Positions 232 to 60,804 of a stretch of 64,000 bases of DNA are shown piece after piece. The notes under the pieces are model-generated. The model was not told where the DNA came from. It worked only from the letters and a program-made list of their open reading frames with translations, and searched no databases. How positions within the stretch are numbered: position 1 is the first letter of the stretch; each line of letters starts with the position of its first letter. The translations under genes and the position numbers were made by a program. Origin of the DNA: Rhizodiscina lignyota (lineage: Eukaryota; Ascomycota; Dothideomycetes; Aulographales; Rhizodiscinaceae); contig ML978128.1 in the NCBI GenBank assembly GCA_010015805.1, forward strand, positions 1,240,001 to 1,304,000. The letters run 5' to 3'.

Positions 232-2274
232 ATGAGAACCGTTGTTGCTCGACATTCAGCCTTTTCTTCAAGCAAGCTTCGAAATGGCCTCTCACACTCC
301 TATGGAGTCTTCTCAATCCCCTACGGAATCTTCTCGCGCTTCTATGGAGCCTTCTCCAAGCCCTCCACTCGTGGTATCGCTCAACCGGCACTTCGCGCTC
401 GGTTTTGCTCGAGTGAACGACTCCGCCTGGTGAAGTCGCATATTCGAGATGTCCAAAGGAAAGATCTTACCACACTTCGCAGTTTATCGACACCGGATCA
501 CAAGAATGAGACCATCTACGCGTTGGCCACTGCCCCAGGCACTTCGGCTATTGCAGTAGTGCGCGTATCTGGTCCTGCATGCAAGAATGTGGGTTGAGAA
601 CGCATCAAGGGTACCACTTATAGACTATCAACTAACGTATTGCACAGATATACTATCTGCTCTCCCTGCGACACACCCTTCCAAGCCCTCGGCTAGCTGT
701 CCTCCGCACGCTCTACGATCCAGCAGATGATGGCATCCTCGACCCGGGTGCATTAGTTCTCTACTTCCCAGCGCCCCACTCATTCACCGGAGAAGATGTG
801 CTCGAGCTGCACATTCATGGCGGTCCAGCAACGATCACAGCGGTGTTAGCAGCCGTACCACAGTGCGCTGCACACTTTGAATGTCCCGAATGCAAAGAAG
901 TCGGGGCCGGTCATGCAATCCGCTACGCTGAACCCGGGGAATTCACCCGTCTTGCTTTCCTCAACAAGCGTCTCTCCCTACCGCAGATCGAAGCTCTGTC
1001 AGCGACTCTCTCTGCGCAAACAGAACAACAGCGGCGCGTGGCAGCGCGAGGCTCGCGCTCGGCACTGTCAGATACGTACGAGGCATGGCGCATGAAACTT
1101 CTTCTGGCGCGCGGCGAGCTCGAAGCGATCATTGACTTTCATGAATCAGAAGACTTTGACGAAACGCCCGAACAGTTGGCGAAGAACGTTGCGCAAATGG
1201 CGCGTGGGTTGTTGGAGGAGATCAAGCTACACAGAGCGAATGCTGTCAGGGGTGAGCTGCTGCGCAGCGGCATTAGCGTCGCGTTTCTAGGAGCGCCGAA
1301 CGCGGGGAAGAGCAGTCTGCTCAACAGGGTTGTGGGCAGAGAAGCCGCAATCGTGAGCCGCGAGGCTGGCACCACGAGGGATATTGTGGACGTAAACGTG
1401 GATTTGGCTGGATGGTACGTTAAATTTGGGGACATGGCGGGACTGCGCGGCAGCAACAGTTCAGGCCACGCGACCTCTGAGAAGGATGAAGTGGGCGAGG
1501 TCGAACAGGAAGGCATCAGGCGCGCGAAGGAGCGGGCGCTGCAATCGGACGTTGTCGTCGTGATCCTCGCCGTCGAACTGGACCCCGAGAACGGCCAGCC
1601 TGTCTTACGCATCGATCCCGAAGTCGTCGCAACGGCGCACGAATGCGCGACGCAGGGCCGCGCAGTCCTCGTTGCCATTAACAAGACCGATAAGCTCGAT
1701 TCGGCCGAAGACGATAATTTTGGCCCCAAAATTATCGCAGCGTGGCGGAAGGAGGTTCAGGCTTCCCTGGGCGTCGAAGAGGGCAGGATCTTCGCTATAT
1801 CCTGCAGGTCCGAGGCAGAGCCGCAAACTAGCCCCCAAAACCAGCCCGGCGGTACAACCACACCAGACCCCGGCCACATCCAAGCCTTCCTGCACGGCCT
1901 GACGTCGACGTTTTCGTCGCTCACTCAGCCCCTGGTCCCCAATCGGGACCCTGCCAATGAAACATATCTCTCCGATATGTCGATTTGGCAGGACTCCTTG
2001 GGGGCCTCGGAGCGCCAGCGAGTGCTGCTGGAGGAGTGTATGGGCCATCTGGAGGTATTTCTGGCCCATACACTCCAACAGCAGAGCTTCGACGTCGTCG
2101 TGGCTGCGGAGAGTCTCCGGGCCGCGGCAGACTGCCTGGCCCGGGTCACCGGGCGTGGGGAAGGCGGAGATGTGGAGGAGGTTCTCGGTGTGGTGTTTGA
2201 GAAGTAAGCCGGCCCGAAGTATTACGGAAACATGAAACTGACACTAGAAGCACAGGTTCTGCGTAGGGAAGTGA
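232..2274 (+). CDS. MSS1: Mitochondrial tRNA-modification GTPase MSS1 (MnmE/TrmE family)
   Basis: Exons 232-588, 648-2203 and 2256-2274; phase is kept and the product is 643 aa. The family works with MTO1/MnmG to install carboxymethylaminomethyl-type modification on wobble uridine of mitochondrial tRNAs. The first ~70 residues are Arg/Ser-rich with no acidic run, like a matrix presequence. The N-terminal folate-binding part follows (TIYALAT.., SGAIAVVR-like start, then GEFTRLAFLNKR). The G domain shows GAPNAGKSS (P-loop), TTRD, DMAGLRG (usually DTAG) and NKTD. The exon-2 frame runs into a stop right after FEK, but a GTAAGC donor at 2204 and a CACAG acceptor join a 19-nt last exon that supplies FCVGK, the C-terminal CxGK motif with the catalytic cysteine. 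The ATG at 232 was chosen because the upstream extension has no ATG. The 3' half of exon 2 contains three strong inverted repeats (see findings). Confidence 0.95.
1712..1737. repeat. Perfect inverted repeat, 12-bp arms, inside MSS1
   Basis: The arms CGATAATTTTGG and CCAAAATTATCG are exact reverse complements with a 2-nt spacer. They lie in coding sequence just after the NKTD motif. Nothing suggests a terminator here, since the ORF continues through it. Confidence 0.9.
1950..1992. repeat. Compound inverted repeat inside MSS1
   Basis: The outer arms CCTGCCAA / TTGGCAGG (8 bp) enclose a 4x4 internal loop, then inner arms ACATATC / GATATGT (7 bp) around a 5-nt loop. The sequence is coding. Confidence 0.85.
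2033..2076. repeat. Perfect inverted repeat, 15-bp arms, inside MSS1
   Basis: GGAGTGTATGGGCCA and TGGCCCATACACTCC are exact reverse complements separated by 14 nt, all within the C-terminal helical domain coding region of MSS1. Confidence 0.9.
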
Positions 2275-3089
2275 GGGGACGGGACTGGCGGTGCGGCGGG
2301 GGGCTCTCTTTGCTCTCCGAGCACTAAGTACATACAAATGGAAAGCTCTAACTCCACTCTTCAATTGCCAGTAGAGATCCCAGATTGAATCAACGTGTTG
2401 CTCGAGTAACAAGCTGTGACCGTGCCGTCATGGAATACACAAAGCCTGTTGCCGGCTACAACACCATAAGGAAGGCAACAGAAGAATGCTCTGCCGAAGT
2501 TGGAACAATACCGACGAACAGGTATAACTCTGTAAAACTCTTCGGCGGCAGCCTCAACACATAGGATCTGGCAGATATTGAGTAATATCTCGTGCGTCAC
2601 TAACACGTTTGCAGCATAGATTTGAAGGATTGTGCATCAAGACCTGAACTCCGCTCTATTTTTCCGATCTATTGCCCGAGTACCATAGCAGGTACCATAC
2701 CAACATTCCTCGTGAGACAAGAAAGAAGAATTGGAAAGGGGGGTAGACAGAAAGAAAGACATTTGAAGAAGGATTACAATAAGTATAAAAAAGGCCCAAG
2801 CCCAGCCGGCAGAAAGAAGGAAACACCAGACGACCCGCTATGCCGAAAGAAAAGACGAAAATGAGGAAGACGAATCGAAGACGCTGAACGCAGCAACAGA
2901 AGAAGCAAACTGCAGAATCCACCGCCAACGCTCCAGGCGCCGATGCATCACGAGTCCTTCACCTCCCTCCTCCTCCTCCTCCCAGCAACCCGAGGGCGCC
3001 CGGTCCAGCCAGTGCGGAGTGTGCCATGATGAAATATGTACGCCGTAAATCCCGCCAGCCATATGTACAAATCCCACCCGTGCGCCGAC

Positions 3090-3116
3090 TTAGTTGTAGC
3101 CGCCGCGTCCAGACAT
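3090..3116 (-). CDS. Micro-ORF 3, octapeptide MSGRGGYN
   Basis: The ORF is 9 codons with stop TAA, 74 nt downstream of micro-ORF 2, and starts in an ACACCGATGTC context. It adds a Ser after Met and uses different Gly codons (GGA, GGC, GGC) from the other copies, but keeps the GRGGYN core. A stop in the -2 to -1 codon region of the leader and the immediate stop after Asn make it a closed frame. Confidence 0.48.
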   Translation of the reverse strand: MSGRGGYN

Positions 3117-3190
3117 CGGTGTCGCTGAAATCAGAAATGAAATTGGTGAAGTGAAGATGAAAAGGTAGATGTGTCGGAGAGGCGCAGCGT

Positions 3191-3214
3191 CTAGTTGTAT
3201 CCGCCGCGACCCAT
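3191..3214 (-). CDS. Micro-ORF 2, heptapeptide MGRGGYN
   Basis: The ORF is 8 codons with stop TAG and starts in a strong CATCACCATGG context, close to the Kozak optimum. It lies 189 nt downstream of micro-ORF 1. The peptide is identical to ORF 1 despite synonymous differences. The flanks on both sides show no similarity to those of the other copies, so this is not a simple recent tandem duplication of a larger unit. Confidence 0.5.
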   Translation of the reverse strand: MGRGGYN

Positions 3215-3403
3215 GGTGATGATGATGAAGACGTGGAAGATTATTTTTGAAATTGTGCGATTTGAAATGTTTGTTGGAGATGAGGCACAGCCGAAACCGA
3301 GGAACGTGCGTGTGTCTGTGTGGTGTTGTTGTATGTGGTGATGATCAGATGATGTGAGAGTAGATGAGATGTGTTGATGTATCCGTGCAAGCGACGACGC
3401 GTA

Positions 3404-3427
3404 TTAGTTATATCCGCCGCGACCCAT
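3404..3427 (-). CDS. Micro-ORF 1, heptapeptide MGRGGYN
   Basis: The ORF is a complete ATG-to-TAA frame of 8 codons, preceded by the C/T-rich leader and the context TTCAAA just before the ATG. It encodes the same peptide as micro-ORF 2 but uses TAT for Tyr and TAA as stop, whereas ORF 2 uses TAC and TAG. The start context is A-rich at -3 to -1, which is good for fungal initiation. It is too short for ordinary gene finders. Translation is inferred from peptide conservation only. Confidence 0.5.
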   Translation of the reverse strand: MGRGGYN

Positions 3428-3960
3428 TTTGAAGAAAGGTTGAATATAGAAAATTCGGAATTGAGAGTGTCGAGGTGATTTGTGACAAAAGAAATACGAA
3501 AAGTTGGTGCCTGAAGGAGGTCGAGGACGAAGGAAACCGGTGTATGAAGTGACTCTTTGAGAGGGTTTGCGAGGTGCAGGAAGGTGTGGATGGAGAGATG
3601 TGATTTGACTGTAGGAGAAGGGGATTGCTGTTGACTGAAATCGAAAATCGTTTGACGTTACTTGTATTGGGTCGGGGGCTGAGTGTCGAGGACGTGACTC
3701 TTTCTCCGTTAACGAACGAGACGCTGCGTACGCTCTGCAGGAATTAAGGCGCTGTCGAAGAGTGGAAAATTAGAAAAGAGGATTGAGAGTGCCAGAAAGG
3801 ACTGCCTGCGAAGGAAAGCTGTAACGAGCGGCTTGCTAGGAAAAGAAGAGAAGAGAAAACGGAGAGAACGAAGGAAACGGTTGCTGCCTGTGAGGCCGGT
3901 CGAGTGCTTTGCTGTCTGGAATTTGATGATGCTAGAACCCTGGAGAGCCGTGCGAGAGGC

Positions 3961-3972
3961 TCTACTTATATC
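3961..3972 (-). promoter_or_regulatory. TATA-like element upstream of the micro-ORF unit
   Basis: The minus strand reads GATATAAGTAGA, a good TATA-box match, about 540 nt upstream of the first micro-ORF. A start site some 30-40 nt downstream would give a long C/T-rich leader. This is inferred from sequence only. Confidence 0.4.
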
Positions 3973-4083
3973 AACAGCCCTGTGATCGCCGTGGTCAGGG
4001 CAGCAGATGCACCATTGCTGATGCCTCTCAGAACTCAAAAATAAGACAGGTGTAGTACTTCCCGGACGGGAAAGCCGCGCCAC

Positions 4084-6365
4084 TACTGCATCGGACGTCG
4101 CAGCGCTCGAAATGGATCAGGGCCACGAGCTGCGCGTGGGGCAGCGAGCACTGAGTCGAAGACAGGCCGCATAGCCACGGGCCTTGTGCCGTCGGCCAGT
4201 GTGGGAGAGCCAAGAGGGTGTGCGATGAGTGATGATGGAGATGACAAAGGGCTGCAGGAGTAACGGTCGAGGCCTCCACTTCAGGTCTAAATGCGTGCCA
4301 TGCCCGCTCCGGCGACGGTATTGGCCAGCTCAAGGTCAGCGCGGAAAGCAAGCGAACGAAAGCCGCTGAACAGCTCTCTCCACCGCCAGCATTCGTTTAC
4401 CGCTCGTGCGCCACAGATCACACCTCGACGTTGGCTTGCTGCCCGCCATTCTGCGGCGCATGCGTGCCACGCCTTTTACCGCTCGAATGTGGCTTGAAAA
4501 TTGACCGCCCGCTGGCATCTGTAACAGGTTGATAATGATGCGGAGAGAGTCGAGTCGTCTGGATCGGGACAGTCGTCCGATGTATCTGGTCGCTAGCCCT
4601 ACGGCCTGCATTGGCGCTGAGATGGGCAGCGATCGTCATCTGGTTAGTAAGGCGTGCAGCACTGCGCACCGAAGAGGCAATCTGTGTGATTTCGAAGCAG
4701 CCTTCTGGAATTCCCGCGACTTCGCTTTCGCCATCCGTCCACTATATTCAACCCGTTACTCCAACATCGCCTGCCCCAAACGGCCGTTCTGCGAAGTCCG
4801 GCTGCAACCGTCGATCCGTTGGTAGGGCTGTTCCACCCTATGTTCCTGAAATAGCCCCCACTCCACTGCCTCGTCATCAGCACTGTGAAGCTCCTCTGTC
4901 ACGATGTAGCGAGCGCAAGGCATCGTGATTCGTATTATCGCCTGCTGGGGTTCTCCGCCTGCCGAGCACTGATGCCTATACATGACCCGGGCCGAAGATT
5001 GGTCTGTTGTCTGGCGTGGGGGATGGCAAGGCATTCTACGAAACGTCGTGCTGTTGCGCAACTAGGAGCAAGCTTCCGGCGCCTTGTCACATTATCGACA
5101 TCATCGCCCAGTTACGCGATCTGCCTCGAGAATGTTGTGTAAGCTCCGGAATCAGTTGCATTCTCACAGAACCAGGAGCGCGGTGTTCTTCGCATGCTGT
5201 GTCGGTCACGGAGCCGTGGTCGAAATGCGGGAGGTCGTACTCGCCAAAAGTTGAAAGGCAGTTCCTGCATCCATACGGTTTTCCTAGTGCGCGCGACATC
5301 GCCAAGATTGGCATTCTCAACGAAGCAGATGTCGAAATTCATTGTGGGCGGGCCGTGCTTATCCAGCTCGACCCAGTGCAGCGGCTTGGGGACGTTAGCG
5401 GCATGTAAATTTAGTTGGTGGCGCCGTAAGGCAGGCCAATAGGCTCTCGTGTGGAGTTTTGCACACCTCCACTGCCGACTGACCGATTCAAACGTGAACG
5501 CCAGGGCTGTGCCGTCCCGCATAACCACACGGAGAATGTGCGGTAGTGGCTGGAGAGAAGGTGGATGGTCGAGATACCGCTCTGCCCTAAGAAGCGGCTG
5601 AACCCCTTCTGCACGTTATAGGCCGCTCCTGTGGCTTCTGTCGCGCGAAAGCTTGTGTCCAACGAACGTGTTCAGCTCCGAAGCATAGGGAGACTTTGGG
5701 TATTCTGACACACCAATGAGTACACGCCTTGTACGCCTGTATCGGAGAATTGCCGGGCTTGGATATGGCGCAGTTTCGACGTTGCAGCCAAGTCACTGAA
5801 GTTGCAGAGGGATTCTGGTAGGACAGGCATGTGAAGGAATCCCTGAGATAAGGCACCGGTACTCATCGATCTCCCTGAGCCTTGCTTGTGCGATCGATCT
5901 CGAAGAGGCCATGCTGTTCATCTGGAATGCGCGAAATCCATCACGATCCTTCTCCCACGCCGCTGCATCATATCGGCTTGCCTAACCATTCGTGTGTTCG
6001 GAGACGACGTTTGACTCGTTGGACGGAGGCCCTTTCGGTGACTCCGAATCGCAAAGTAAGGGCCGTACATCCTCCCCGCATCTCGAGCCCATGATTCATG
6101 AAGTCAAAGTTAAGCTCGTAAATACGTGTAGTATAGATGAGGGGTTTACTCAAGGGTTCCATGCACGGTGTCTCCTGAGACGGGGTTGGAAAAGGAAGCA
6201 CCAACTCCTCCATCATACTCTTATCTCATTATTCATCAATTTCTCAAGCAATGGTATTGTCATAGTAATTCAGACATGATAGCAATTCTGCAACTTCTCC
6301 ACGTGTAGCTCGTATGTTCTCTCAACGGTGGCCCCACGCCATCGTACTGCGTCCATCGCGCTCTA
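4084..6365. other. Gene-free stretch with a possible gene relic on the minus strand (about 5870-4640)
   Basis: No intact coding model could be built. On the minus strand several protein-like fragments occur in different frames, for example one around 5866-5672, one around 5662-5411, one around 5528-5250 and one around 5300-5100. They lie in a consistent order, as expected of an old decayed or heavily rearranged gene. I cannot assign the fragments to a family. The region between 4084 and 4640 shows only short ORFs on both strands. Confidence 0.25.
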
Positions 6366-7688
6366 TCAGAGGGAGTATGAGCTGATGTAGTACTGCAAGC
6401 CGTCAGCATCGAGATAGTAGCCGCGGAACAGTTGTTCAGCTCACTGTGAGGACAGAAGGGTCATCGCTATCTTCGTTGTTGCTCAGGAAGACGTAAAGTA
6501 TTAGGGCGTGATCGTCACAGAAACCTGCGCGGCATGTTAGCACAAGGGAACACCGTTACGGCAGCAGCGAGATTACAAGCAATGACTCTTCCACTGAGCC
6601 TTCCCACTGACATGACTTTGCCCCAATCTCGCCCGTCGATTCTAACAGTTGCCCACCCCTCTTCGCTCTTCCCGTCTGCACTTCCTAGCTCTCTCATTCT
6701 TGTGCTGGCATGATGACGGATGCCCTCCTCGCCTCCTTCCACTTGAGCTGGATCGAGATCTGGATTCTGAAGGCCCGTCCAGAGCGTTGAGATATTCATT
6801 GCATCTGTTCTGATACTCAGTCTCAGACAGCCGTGCATGTTCGCCGAAAGCTCCAAACGAGGAGTAGAGTTTGAGTTCCCAGACGTGCCCGACTTCGAAG
6901 CGAGTGCTAATTTCGTGAATCGGTCCGAGATGCTCTTCAACTGGATCAGAGGTGGCAGTTGGATATGCACATCTGGCTCACGACACCTCGGCTCGTGAAT
7001 GCCGTCCACGTTACTTTGGCTGAGGACACGGACGGGGATATCTTGGGTCACAATCGTCTCCCGCTCACGAGAGCTGCTGTTGAAGTCGACACTCGATGCT
7101 CGATCATCCATCGCATCTGGATCTTGTCGAGCGGAAGATGCGCCGAAGGCATCAACCCCAGTTCGATAGGAAACTGTGTTGATTGTGAGGCACAGTACAG
7201 GCAGGCTATCTTTCTTGGTGAGCCTGATGTTGGCCGATGTAGCATTCAGGGCGGATTTGAGAGCGCGCTGGAGCTGTACAACGGGTACTTCGAGGTTGAT
7301 GACATCGTTGTTGGCCGACTGAATCGTATATTGCTCGAAGATAGTGTCCTTCGACGGTCAGCTTTGCATGCGCGATGGAACTATCAAAGCGAAGATTCAA
7401 CTTACTTTCGCCAGCACGCTATATCACGACCACACGGTCAGTAGTGGGAAACTATATAGATATAGACATCACTTACGCCCAAACCTGAGTTCCTTGTTCA
7501 GGTATTATCGTGAAGCGGATTTCATTTTCGTCTAGCCGAACCCACGCCACTGCTCCCAAGGACGCTATGGAGGCAGTAAATTCTAGTCCAAGCGCATTAG
7601 CGATCTGATCTAGCTCTAAAATTTTCAAATCTTTACTACACTTACTGTTAAACGTGTTGATGTTCTGTATGGAGGCCTTGAACCGCAT
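6366..7688 (-). CDS. HUS1: DNA-damage checkpoint clamp subunit HUS1
   Basis: Exons (minus strand) 7688-7646, 7582-7477, 7418-7406, 7348-6577, 6524-6445 and 6392-6366; 346 aa, in phase. HUS1 is one subunit of the Rad9-Rad1-Hus1 (9-1-1) PCNA-like ring that loads at damaged DNA and activates ATR/Mec1 signalling. Family landmarks are the start MRFKASIQNINTFN, then VAWVRLDENEIRFTI, PEQGTQVWA, DTIFEQYTIQSAN, TQDIPVRVL, HEPRCREPDVHI, LQLKSISDRFTKLALAS, ELSANMHG, the GWATVRIDGRDWGKV segment and the end LTYYISSYSL. The third exon is only 13 nt (VLAK) and is needed to link VWA to DTIF at the family spacing. Intron 1 is 63 nt, so it can be read through in frame and could mislead gene callers. The internal variable loop is Ser-rich, as usual. 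Confidence 0.93.
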
Positions 7689-49709: not shown

Positions 49710-52035
49710 ATGTCGGAACGCGCATTCAAAGAAATCCCAGTGGCCTTTACATCGGCTCAGCCATCTTCAGAGAGGGTAAGAGGTCGAGCATTTTCTTTTC
49801 TCACTCATACGGAGCTCGCTCTCCGTGTCGAGCTTCGCAGTTTCATAGTCTCGACCCCATCCAAGACAACCTCAATCAATCTATTCTGCTGCGGTCATGT
49901 CTAACATGTGAATAGTTTAACTCGTAAGTCGAAAATGAGCTGCATCATTACTGGTGTATGTTCTGATAAATGTAAAGAGGCTTCTTGGAAGACAACCCCA
50001 GCTTTCGAATATCCAAATGGCGAGCCAACTTGGTCAGCCCCCACCCAATCGTCTCCTCTCAGTGCCTTCAACTCTTATACTCATTTACCATAGAGTGCCC
50101 TATCGCAGGTTTACAACCTCTACTTCATATGCTGTGGCTCCAACATCCAGGTCTATGAGCCTTCATTCCCAAAACAGAAGCTCTCCGACACGCCCGTCCT
50201 GATACTTCAGCCGGAGCCTTCAGCTCCTAACCTGAGCGGCTATATCGACCGCCACAACTCACATAGCATCACGCGCCTGCTCGTCGATTTCTTAGGCAGT
50301 GAAGAGATTGTGCTCGTCACCTGTGATGATGGCGATGTCATCGGTTATCGCACTGCGGCTATTAAGCGTGCGATTGAGCGCCGCTCGCAGCCAGACTGCG
50401 AGAAGTCGAATGTTGGCGATGAGGTGAAACCGTTCTGGCAGAAGAACATGGGGATCAGTGCATGGGGCCTATCTGTTCACAGGGAGGCAAGAATGATCGC
50501 AGTGAGTGCGAATACTCGACAAGTCACGGTCTTCGCCTTTGCGCTTGTAGAAGATGTCATGTCAGTCTCCTCCATCTGCGATTGAATCATCAGTTCCATG
50601 CCATAAAGTGACACCTAACATGCTTCAGGTTCCTTGGCGAGGCTCCGGATTGGCCCCACAAGAGACAGTATGACCACACGATACGGCTGCCTCAGGTCCA
50701 AGATAACATACCGAGTGTGGCATTTTGCAACACAGGGGACGATACATTGGGGCAGTTCCTTCTTGCAACAGACATCGAAGGCAACCTGCATCTGTTCGAC
50801 GTGCACAACCAGCTGCTGGTCAGGACCGTCAAATGCGCATTTTGCGCGTTGGTGAATCACAGATGCCTCTGTGATGGAAACTCGGTGTATCGGTCCTTTC
50901 CCCACGCACGTGAGTATCTCTCTGCCAAAGAAGATCCCTATCTCTCGGTGCGTGGGTAAATGAATCAATTCACTAACGCAACCTCCCAGTGTGGGGCGCT
51001 ATATGGCTCGATCGTCGCTCGTTCAGCAAGCAACCTGACATCCGAACTGCAACCGGTTCACGCAACCTGTCCGACGAGGAGCTGAACAAGCACTGGATCC
51101 TCGACATCAGCAGAACGGCCGGCGAGGTGAGGGACGCCTCTCTCGAGTACATCCCCGGTCAAAGGCCAACCACCCCCAGGAGGGAGAACAACGACATCTC
51201 CGACCGAAGCAGCAACACTTCCACACCACAGTCACTACCACAAGATAACAACCACATCCCCGCAATCGCCGACCTCGCCCTCTCCGCCACCTTCCAGAAC
51301 CCCTGGGGCGACGACGCCCTAGGGGTACCCGTGTCCGACGACGACGAAGACGAAGACGACGACGAAGAAGAAGAAGACGATTCAGACTCCGACCCTCCCC
51401 TCCGCCAACGCCTCCACTACCTCCCCTACATGGAGCCTTCAATGGCCCCAATCTTCGCGCAGTCCCCCTCCTGCCCCATCATGCAGCTCTCGCTCCGCGA
51501 AATCACCCTCTTCCAACCCCACACCATGACCCCAGACTCCGACGGCGATGCCACGCCCGCAGCGCAGGCCCACCCGCCAGAGGTGTACCTGCGCCGGCCG
51601 CTGTACCAGCACGTGCCGTCCATGCCGGCGCGGCCCTTCTTCAACTCGGACAGCATGTCGCACTTCGCGCGCCTCTCGCTGACCGCCTACATCCCGGACA
51701 TCGGCGTCGTGCTGGCGGGCAGCCCGGAGGGGCGCGTCGCCGTGCTGTCGCTGACGCAGACGCAGGTCGAGGTGGAGGCCCGCCTGACGCCCTTTTTTAG
51801 CATGCGCCTGGACTGGATCCTGCCGCTGCGCAGCCAGGAGAGGAGCGGGCAGCGGCCGGAGCAGTTGCTGCTGGGCCTGGCGGTGGGGCCGGTGCAGGGC
51901 ATGTTGGGGCGCGGGGGGAAGGTGAGGAGGTGGAGGGTTCTGCTGACGTATGAGGGGCATAATGTGCTGGCTTATGAGATTGCGAGGCCGCGGGCGAGGG
52001 ATGGGAAGGAGAGGGCGAGTGTGTTGGTTGTTTGA
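49710..52035 (+). CDS. CRT10: CRT10-family protein
   Basis: Exons 49710-49775, 49916-49923, 50096-50560, 50629-50909 and 50990-52035; 621 aa, in phase. In yeast Crt10 was linked to transcriptional control of ribonucleotide reductase genes; biochemistry is not established. The fold is probably beta-propeller-like. Landmarks are VYNLYFICCGSNIQVYEPSFPKQ, EEIVLVTCDDGDVIGYRTAAI, GISAWGLSVHREARMIAVSANTRQVTVFAFAL, GQFLLATDIEGNLHLFDVHNQLLVRTV and WGAIWLDRRSF. A central acidic run (DDDEDEDDDEEEEDDSDSD) and the C-terminal VRRWRVLLTYEGHNVLAYEIARPR are also typical. Exon 2 is an 8-nt micro-exon (TTTAACTC) that supplies the phase and residues FNS before ALSQVYNLYF. It is the least certain part of the model, while exons 3-5 are firm. 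The C-terminal exon is very GC-rich with synonymous C/G bias. Confidence 0.8.
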
Positions 52036-57756: not shown

Positions 57757-60063
57757 TCAATCCTCTCCTCCACCGCCACGTGGGGATTTCCCTTCCGTAA
57801 CCGGCCACTTCGGCCCCCAGCTCCCGTCCCGACTCCCCAAACCGCTGTTGCCGAACGGGTCGTCGCTGTCTGTCTCATTCTCGGACCGCGCTTGCGGGCT
57901 CGGGCTCGGCCCGTTCAGCTCCACGTCGCGCGCCACCTCCTCGATACGTCGCGCGATGCTGTCCCTTCTGCTCGTGCTGGGGACGGTGATGCCCAGCCCA
58001 ATAGCTGGACTGCTTGGTCGCGTTGACAATCCGGGGCTTGGAGAGGTCTGCCGTGTGGGTGTGCCCGTGGACTGGCGAAAGGGACTCCGCGTGGGCAGAG
58101 GCGGCGGCGTAAGCGCGTACTCTGGAGTCCTAGGCGAGGGGGTGGGCGTCTTTTCGCGCTCGAGCCGCTGCGCCGTTTGCGCGATCATCCGCTGGCGCTC
58201 TCTGTCGCGACGCAGCTGCGCGCGCTGGGCGAGAGTGAGATTCGCCAGCGGTGCTGCTGTGCTGGGCTCGGCCTCAGTCGCCGATGCTGGTGATGGCGTT
58301 TCTATCTGTCCTTCTATCCCTCTCGCTGTGCTGGGGAGGCTCTTTCGCCTTACAGACGGATACCGCGCGAGAACTCGGCGCGCTTGTGGACCTAGGGGAG
58401 CACGTGGAGCGTCTGGGGCCGACCCTATGCCGGCAATTACAGGTACTGAATGGAATATGCTGCTACGGCTTCCGCTGGACGCTGATTCTGATTCTAGTAC
58501 TGGTTCGAGTTCTGGTTGCTGTTGAACTTGTGCTTGGGGTACTGCTAGATCGGAGAATGGATTCGTGGGTACAGCCGCATCAGAGAATGGATTCTGGCTC
58601 GAGATCTGTCCAGCCGGGCCTGCGACTGCAGACCTGTACCTCTGGTTTGTTGTATACGTGAGCGTGGGCTCGCCAATCTGCATGTCCAAGTTCTTGCTTC
58701 GGAACGAGCGTCTCAGTGAATTGCCAACTTGGCGGAACAGTGGGGCAGCTAAAATTCCGTATACGACATTTCCAGCCTCAGCCTTTTCCACATCGCTTGC
58801 CGGAGTGAACTTCTCCTTGGCTCTGTAGAACGCCTTTGCGACGCGTTTCCGGAAGAAGAGCAAAAGTGCGGCGAGGACAAGGAAAGCTTTAAGATATGTA
58901 AGACGACCTGATCAATGGTTAAGAAACTGTAGAGTTTCTCACCTAGGACGCCCAATACGATCAAGGCGATCTCCGCTCCTTGGCTAAGGCCACCTGAACT
59001 ATCCGATGTTCCTGATTGGGATAACGCAGATTGCGAGGGACTATTGGTCGAAGAGCTTGGCCGTGTCGAAATTGTGCTCAGAAATGTTGGCTCTGTCGTG
59101 TGGGCGTTAGAAAAAGTTCTAGTGGGAGCACCGTCGGACGACTGGAGTAGCGTAGTGCTGGTGGATGTTGGGGCGATGAGTGGAGCTTCCAACGACGAGT
59201 GAGACCCTGGTAGTTGAAATTGGATGGAGAGCTATCTCACCTGAAGTACTGGTTGTAGATATTGGTATCTATACTATGTTAGTAGATAAGTTTAAGGTGA
59301 TGATAGTATCACTTGCCGTTAGAGGTGTTTCTGGATTTGATGTGGAGGAAGAGGGATCAGAGCTCCCTAATGAAGCAGAAGAGCTGAGCGTTGAAGAAGC
59401 AAGAGAAGTTGTTGTAGATGCCGCTGGCTGATAAGTGCTCGATAAAGCTGGAGAGGTCGAGGCTGATTGCGATTGCTTTGGCAAAGACGAAGGTTGTGTT
59501 GGAAGAGGTGGTGGTAGTAGAGATGCAGAAGATGGTGCAGGCATCATTGTAGGAGTTTGCGCCGAAGCAGTTGTAGAGCAGATCGACGGTAGTACTATAG
59601 GTGGACCCGGGCCTCCGTCAGGTGAACGTGCAAGTACGTTTGGGCCCAGGAGTGCTGCAAGTGTTCCGCATTCACAATTCGGTGCGGGTAGCGTGGGTAC
59701 AAGCAGAGGAGAGCCTAGTTGAGCAGCGCGTTGCGCGAGAGAGTCGTCATCTCCGTCGTCGTCATCATCGCTATCATCGCTATCGTCCCCGTCTCCGTCA
59801 CCATCAAGCGTTGGTAAGGGTGCCTGTCCAGTTGAACATTGGCCCCCCGCTGGTGCGGCCGCAGGACTCTGCGAGTCGTTGCCATCATCAGGCTCTGGAG
59901 CTCGGTTTTCCACGTCTCGTCGCAGTCGCTTTGCAGCTCGATTCTCAGAATCTTCTCGTCGTTCGAGTAATTGGGTCCACCGCGAACCGCGTGTCTTCAG
60001 CCTTGATCTTCTTTCTCCGACCAAGCCGGAGCTCGGTAGCTGCCTTGCAATACTCATGCTCAT
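57757..60063 (-). CDS. Single-pass surface membrane protein with two NPFSD endocytosis motifs
   Basis: Exons 60063-59313, 59206-58943 and 58886-57757 (minus strand); 714 aa. One transmembrane helix near residue 325-350, IALIVLGVLAFLVLAALLLFF, is followed by basic residues (RKRVAK), so the C-terminal ~365 residues face the cytoplasm. The outer part is Ser/Thr/Pro-rich, like an O-mannosylated stalk, with a few Cys and an acidic Asp run (DSDDSDDDDD). No signal peptide is visible at the chosen ATG, which is an oddity: an upstream exon may be missing, or the helix acts as signal anchor. The tail contains QNPFSDAAVPTNPFSDLAV, two copies of NPFxD, and long Pro/Ser/Thr/Arg-rich sequence ending EGKSPRGGGGED. 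Overall the design resembles Wsc/Mid2-type wall sensors without a visible WSC domain. The first intron (GTGATA donor) is less certain. Confidence 0.6.
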
Positions 60064-60804
60064 GAGTCCACGAGTCTTGAAAAAAGAACAAAGAGAGTTA
60101 AGAAGGAAAGACAGACAAGTTACAGCGGAAGTGATTCTGAAAAATGCTGCAGCATGTAGTGAGTACTACATTGAGAGGTAGAAGCCATGATCAAGAACGT
60201 GAGAAAGGAAGAAAAACACATCTGGAGCTTGACGTGCGGAGTTGAACGGATTAGACCTGCAACAGCAGGCAGCCCTTCCCTCCCCACGCCCCAAGCGAAG
60301 CTTGTTTCGTGGTTGACTGCGCCTCATTACCTTGGATATAAGATCAGAATCGAAGTGTACAGGCGTGGAACATACTTGCGGACTCGATTCCGCTAGTTGG
60401 AAAGCCCTTGGCGTGTATCAAACAGTGTCTCCAGAGTTGAACGAGCCAACCACCATTTTGCCAGGCGTCTCAGGCCGCGCGGGCCAACCGATGCCGAGCG
60501 CTTTCACCCATATTATTGTAGAACGATCGTTCGGATGTTCGCCGGTATTCGCTTCCAGCTGCAATAATAATATACATATTGCAGCCTATTCACAGAAGAG
60601 GAAGGAGTCCAAGTCTCACCCCTGTGAAGTTCGATCGCTCGGATCTCAAAGAGCCATTCGTCAAATAGTTTTGCCGGCCGGGAGCCAATCGTTGGAACCT
60701 CTATGAAGCTTTGATCTTGCTGGAACTGCCAGAAGCCCGGTTCGAGGTTCAACAATCTAATTAATTCCATACTGACTGTACAAGCCCGGCAGTTGGTTCC
60801 GAAC
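60064..60804. other. Divergent promoter region, surface protein / EMC7
   Basis: The 740-bp gap separates two divergent genes. Short ORFs only. A continuation of the surface-protein gene upstream (for example a signal-peptide exon) could lie in its left half, but none was found. Confidence 0.4.

Follow-up and report, generated by a model that had tools for sequence, protein, structure and literature searches.

Three tandem micro-ORFs encoding (S)GRGGYN peptides form a candidate polycistronic micropeptide unit in a fungus-like genome

The locus lies within a stretch of 64,000 nucleotides, hereafter the window, whose gene content, judged from the encoded proteins, is that of a fungus-like eukaryote. 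Twenty stop-free stretches, a selection and not every gene, were scanned against Pfam and returned matches to HUS1, an MnmE-type GTPase, RRP36 and EH domains, among others. The best solved relative of the helicase encoded in the window is DHR1, and comparison of the RRP36-like protein with solved structures gave no matches. A tRNA search of the window was likewise negative. On the plus strand, a 352-codon stop-free stretch matching Pfam CRT10 (50977-52035) contains a short tandem repeat (GACGACGACGAAGAAGAA, 2.4 copies, 51337-51380) that would form an acidic run if read in the frame of that stretch.

Between the MnmE-type GTPase gene on the plus strand and the HUS1 gene on the minus strand lie 4.3 kb (2208-6517) in which no gene was recognised; the only stretch of this interval scanned against Pfam (5115-5615, minus strand) gave no match. 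Among its stop-free stretches of at least 40 codons, the best codon score (0.10) belongs to 107 codons at 4421-4741 on the minus strand, which falls within the lower part of the range spanned by the training genes. This stretch sits upstream of the TATA-like site listed in Table 1.

The same interval holds three tandem micro-ORFs on the minus strand (Table 1). Our reading of the ORFs and a six-frame search reproduced the frames, peptides (MGRGGYN, MGRGGYN and MSGRGGYN) and coordinates given in the first-pass annotation, and throughout the 64 kb these are the only three places where GRGG[YF] or RGGYN occurs. The third differs in length by one additional Ser codon, inserted in frame immediately 3′ of the ATG. 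All three starts had been credited with good initiation contexts, which holds for starts 1 and 2 (A at −3 and G at +4); the context of start 3 is merely fair because of the C at −3.

Table 1. Features of the minus-strand unit, in the direction of reading (positions in the window).
Feature	Coordinates	Strand	Details
TATA-like element TATAAG	3965..3970	(-)	within TTGATATAAGTAGA; consensus match, not proof
Presumed pyrimidine-rich leader	3428..3940	(-)	513 nt; ATG-free; C+T 64%; predicted 5′ end
Micro-ORF 1, MGRGGYN, stop TAA	3404..3427	(-)	24 nt: ATG GGT CGC GGC GGA TAT AAC TAA; start context TTCTTCAAAATGGGT, −3 = A, +4 = G
Spacer 1	3215..3403	(-)	189 nt; ATG-free
Micro-ORF 2, MGRGGYN, stop TAG	3191..3214	(-)	24 nt: ATG GGT CGC GGC GGA TAC AAC TAG; start context ATCATCACCATGGGT, −3 = A, +4 = G
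Spacer 2	3117..3190	(-)	74 nt; ATG-free
Micro-ORF 3, MSGRGGYN, stop TAA	3090..3116	(-)	27 nt: ATG TCT GGA CGC GGC GGC TAC AAC TAA; start context GCGACACCGATGTCT, −3 = C
74-codon ATG ORF	2838..3062	(-)	longest main-ORF candidate, judged non-coding; codon score 65th/121

The three micro-ORFs are a real, non-random and unusual feature, and the reading that we give them below is coherent but unproven. As a null, the whole window was shuffled 4000 times with its dinucleotide counts preserved, and on both strands ORFs of 5-30 aa that lie within 600 nt of each other and end at different stops were compared. The window holds three neighbouring pairs, and one triple, with a common C-terminal 6-mer; not one such pair arose in the 4000 shuffles, nor did a triple with any 5-mer in common (0/4000), while a pair with a 6-mer common at any place appeared in 154/4000. 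A looser count, in which nested ATGs are scored separately, permits at least three 6-mer pairs in 2/600 shuffles, and the stricter count was therefore relied on. Random sequence is thus ruled out as the source of the three alike micro-ORFs. Since the shuffles model random sequence, and duplication lies outside that model, the null does not extend to copying.

Ahead of the copies, the first-pass annotation had placed a TATA-like element and a C/T-rich leader of about 500 nt, and both are present. TATAAG at 3970 is the sole match to TATA[AT][AG] on the minus strand from 4400 to 2200, and it lies 543 nt upstream of micro-ORF 1. Successive minus-strand ATGs fall at 4015, 3427, 3214, 3116 and 3062, so that between 4015 and 3062 there are only the micro-ORF starts. 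The leader and the two spacers together contain no ATG, against 6.6 expected from base composition (P 0.0006) and 2.5 expected from dinucleotide composition, where the deficit is marginal (P 0.047). ATG-poor stretches also exist elsewhere, with three ATGs or fewer in 113 of 6315 overlapping 850-nt pieces of the minus strand. The 588-nt ATG-free interval before micro-ORF 1 is the second-longest between ATGs on that strand of the window; the longest is at 58794-59543 (751 nt, counted from the ATG at 59544), and parts of it are shared with the stop-free stretches 59269-60165 and 58749-59231.

The folding energy of the 851-nt stretch is that of shuffled sequence (z −0.06, with 11 of 20 shuffles folding as well or better). 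A frame other than that of micro-ORF 1 stays open for 138 codons on the minus strand (3244-3657), crossing the leader and extending beyond micro-ORF 1. This stop-free stretch has a coding score of 0.053, below those of all ten training genes (0.089-0.27), and is probably due to composition, with non-AUG initiation as the alternative.

Downstream, the 74-codon ORF opens 27 nt past the stop of micro-ORF 3; the next longest ATG ORF on the minus strand from 3089 to 2208 has 41 codons. Its codon score against its own composition is −0.136 (training genes, 0.042 to 0.176), which ranks the 74-codon ORF 65th among the window's 121 ATG ORFs with lengths of 60-110 aa; with the composition of the window as the reference, the value is 0.023 (0.064 to 0.316 for the training genes). 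By a second measure of coding, in which training genes score optimistically, the stop-free stretch around it reaches 0.033 (training genes, 0.089-0.27). We therefore rejected it as a main gene on the grounds that it scores like non-coding DNA. The earlier statement that no longer ORF follows the copies is thus wrong to the letter, an ATG ORF of 74 codons being there (3062-2838), and right insofar as that ORF appears to be non-coding.

These downstream data bear on the most serious rival explanation, a cis-acting translational sensor, in which a stalling uORF of the MAGDIS kind, dependent on its peptide and present three times over, would set ribosome flow to the remainder of the transcript or its decay. 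A six-residue uORF peptide that arrests near its own stop is described for MAGDIS (PMC11900008), and here starts 1 and 2 stand in strong contexts with an ORF close behind the third stop. That ORF, however, is the longest that the strand offers from 3089 to 2208 and still looks non-coding, as does the stop-free stretch around it, and beyond it the MnmE-type gene converges from the plus strand, its stretch ending at 2207. We regard such a sensor as unlikely, though deserving of serious attention. The uORF cassette that the first-pass annotation offered as its second option is weakened on the same evidence, and with no convincing main ORF among the unspliced ATG frames and a convergent MnmE-type gene we favour a stand-alone micropeptide unit over it.

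Comparison of the copies speaks to whether their likeness resides in the peptide or in the DNA. Seventeen of the 21 aligned positions after the start are common to all three copies, and the four that differ are third positions of two Gly codons, the Tyr codon and the stop. All four differences are silent, so the synonymous codons and stops do vary among the copies as first described. With about one quarter of single changes silent here, the probability of four out of four is 0.003-0.006 (0.0032-0.0058 over three transition/transversion ratios), a value that rests on four sites taken as independent. The pattern is what peptide-level selection would leave, a view that is partly supported, four sites being few.

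The flanks had been called unrelated, and over 30 nt per side they largely are, and in none of six pairwise comparisons does the agreement exceed the 95th percentile for segments drawn at random from that stretch. The exception is borderline: upstream of copies 1 and 2, 13 of 30 bases are alike, exactly at that percentile, and an ungapped repeat search joins the three copies into one 31-nt family that, for copies 1 and 2, extends 8 nt in the direction of the leader. Because micro-ORFs 1 and 2 also differ at just 2 of 24 bases, a duplication of these two is possible. The preference for peptide selection over recent duplication accordingly holds as regards the silent differences and a likeness lying essentially within the frames, and has to be relaxed for this pair.

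As an account of the whole locus, local copying of a short, functionless sequence that is an ORF by chance, too recent for much divergence, seems improbable to us. It draws on the closeness of copies 1 and 2 and is a process that the shuffles leave aside, but it must contend with flanks that are otherwise unalike, with four variable sites that are all silent, with a third copy that differs by an in-frame codon, and with a stretch from 4015 to 3062 that is devoid of any other ATG.

A repeated DNA or RNA element that merely resembles an ORF, such as a binding site for a protein (GGNCGCGGCGGNTAYAACTA), would account for the 17 common positions and for the invariant CGCGGCGG. A binding site, however, needs neither an ATG (or an ATG and one codon) directly 5′ nor a stop directly 3′ in all three copies, and it need not vary at third positions only. 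Rfam has no match at gathering scores in the window, and the three matches at a lax threshold in 2200-4600 are all far below the gathering score. We consider this explanation distinctly improbable.

Splicing was assessed with two donor patterns, GT[AG]NGT and GTANGN. On the minus strand in 3940-2300 these occur at 3731, 2700 and 2335, and neither is found between the copies or anywhere else between 3731 and 2700. The donor-like GTACGC at 3731 has as a counterpart a branch-like TCTGAT and an AG at about 3127, immediately upstream of micro-ORF 3. Joining the two would create an intron of about 600 nt and delete micro-ORFs 1 and 2, which we think unlikely because fungal introns are usually far shorter. 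That the copies derive from a longer protein with GRGG repeats of the Amu1/Par32 kind, as exons spliced together or as decayed remnants, is very improbable: they have the GRGG core in common with its GRGGAGN repeat as reported (PMC4501750), but hidden exons are rejected for want of a donor of the tested patterns between the copies, each copy opens with a separate start and is closed by an in-frame stop in the same position, and the Amu1 pattern GRGGX[AG]N is unmatched.

We then asked where the motif occurs in viral (IMG/VR) and prokaryote genomes, collections that include no fungal genomes. The MGRGGYN-type DNA pattern, which also allows Ser in place of Arg and Trp in place of the stop, was present in three contigs of IMG/VR, and four times in the prokaryote collection, where about 15 would be expected under equal base use. 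Patterns of the MSGRGGYN and M-X-GRGGYN types had no matches in IMG/VR. Three of the seven loci encode MGRGGYN (L002, L004 and L005, the last continuing with W) and four encode MGSGGYN (L001, L003, L006 and L007); each has the motif once, and none has tandem copies. A search of IMG/VR for fungal contigs through the neighbouring HUS1-like protein gave two stretches that matched a pattern, neither of which was confirmed.

The best reading of this anatomy, and one that is partly supported, is a polycistronic unit under peptide-level selection. We favour peptide-level selection because the differences are silent only, the likeness is essentially confined to the frames, the extra codon of the third copy is in frame and there is no competing ATG. 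On this basis the locus could be a dedicated polycistronic micropeptide gene, expressed by scanning and reinitiation in a fungus-like genome, a proposal that we advance tentatively. A capped RNA would begin some 30-45 nt below the TATA-like site at 3970, near 3940, and its AUG-free leader of about 0.5 kb would bring scanning ribosomes to micro-ORF 1 first. Ribosomes can reinitiate after very short ORFs; here, having terminated after the seven codons of micro-ORF 1, they would go on scanning and start again at micro-ORF 2 (189 nt downstream) and, after a further 74 nt, at micro-ORF 3. Removal of the initiator Met would leave two copies of GRGGYN and one of SGRGGYN, the repetition serving to raise the dose of one peptide.

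The peptides of such a gene would act in trans as short arginine-glycine ligands. At a guess, their targets would be readers of GRGG or SGRG, such as the partners of Amu1/Par32-type motifs, NatD or the arginine methyltransferases; the term 'RGG-type' is used for the peptides as a description only. Free peptides that act in trans are usually longer than 6-7 residues, and this weighs against the reading that we favour. N-myristoylation of MGRGGYN was considered and dropped because residue 6 is Tyr, where Ser or Thr is expected.

Should the micropeptide gene prove real, it would mean that length cut-offs make gene finders miss fungal genes whose product is the size of a linear motif. With one peptide encoded three times in one RNA, the locus would also be a clean test system, in which synonymous recoding as against frameshifting separates a function of the peptide from one of the RNA.

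Among cis-acting systems, the MAGDIS uORF is the nearest by peptide size; it is present as one copy, and the uORFs of GCN4/cpc-1 are not known to repeat one peptide. The S-adenosylmethionine decarboxylase uORF that encodes MAGDIS resembles the unit in the window in being very short, and its effect is linked to its peptide, as described in PMC11900008, but it encodes another peptide and stands upstream of a real coding sequence, and the unit shows no convincing one. Fungal leaders of the GCN4/cpc-1 kind are likewise long and contain several short ORFs, which there are read by reinitiation; in N. crassa cpc-1, whose leader exceeds 700 nt, ribosomes have been shown to reinitiate once they have translated a short first uORF (PMC5487733). 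Those leaders precede a transcription-factor gene (a bZIP activator), whereas the longest ATG ORF from 3089 to 2208 here has 74 codons. No such GRGGYN cassette was recognised among the matches listed in a search of the literature on smORFs and uORFs, restricted to fungi in part, and a search for GRGG with uORF and fungi returned none, subscription journals being mostly outside the scope of both.

Three parallels at the level of the peptide are leads, not tests. Fungal Amu1/Par32 proteins are described as having three to six motifs of the GRGGAGN type; mutation of the arginines of four motifs compromised the interaction with Mep1 and abolished inhibition of the ammonium transporters Mep1 and Mep3 (PMC4501750). 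The likeness is a repeated GRGG core followed by Asn; there, however, the repeats (GRGGX[AG]N) lie within one protein, and here GRGGYN, one residue shorter, is on separate peptides and is followed by a stop; the two or more GRGGX[AG]N motifs in one protein that mark that family are absent from the unit. NatD recognises the SGRG at the N-terminus of histones H4 and H2A (PMC12716425), and MSGRGGYN, the third of the three peptides and the only one of its kind, is predicted to expose SGRG once its Met is removed. NatD acts cotranslationally on chains that extend beyond the tunnel, which a ribosome-bound 8-mer would presumably not reach. Finally, the letters GRGGYN occur in the PY-NLS of Hrp1, but as part of a 27-residue signal that ends in PY, according to PMC8140498.

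The system closest in architecture is tarsal-less/polished rice/mille-pattes (tal/pri/mlpt) of insects, described as a 1.5-kb polycistronic mRNA with four smORFs and a common LDPTGQY motif (PMC11475943). The likeness, which here is seen at the level of the DNA, lies in separate tandem smORFs with one common peptide motif. The differences from that description are in motif (LDPTGQY there, M(S)GRGGYN here, with LDPTGQY itself absent from the peptides), in length (products of 11-32 residues there, 7-8 here) and in lineage (arthropod there, a fungus-like genome here), and for these reasons the unit in the window is not a member of the family, though by analogy it may work like one. It is possible, if more speculative than the micropeptide gene itself, that the locus is a fungal counterpart of tarsal-less with an independent origin: an RNA whose only products would be repeated free (S)GRGGYN peptides of 6-7 residues, among the shortest encoded peptides to act in trans, and perhaps a soluble mimic of the GRGG or SGRG of larger proteins. 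If so, a multi-smORF gene of the tarsal-less kind would have arisen outside animals.
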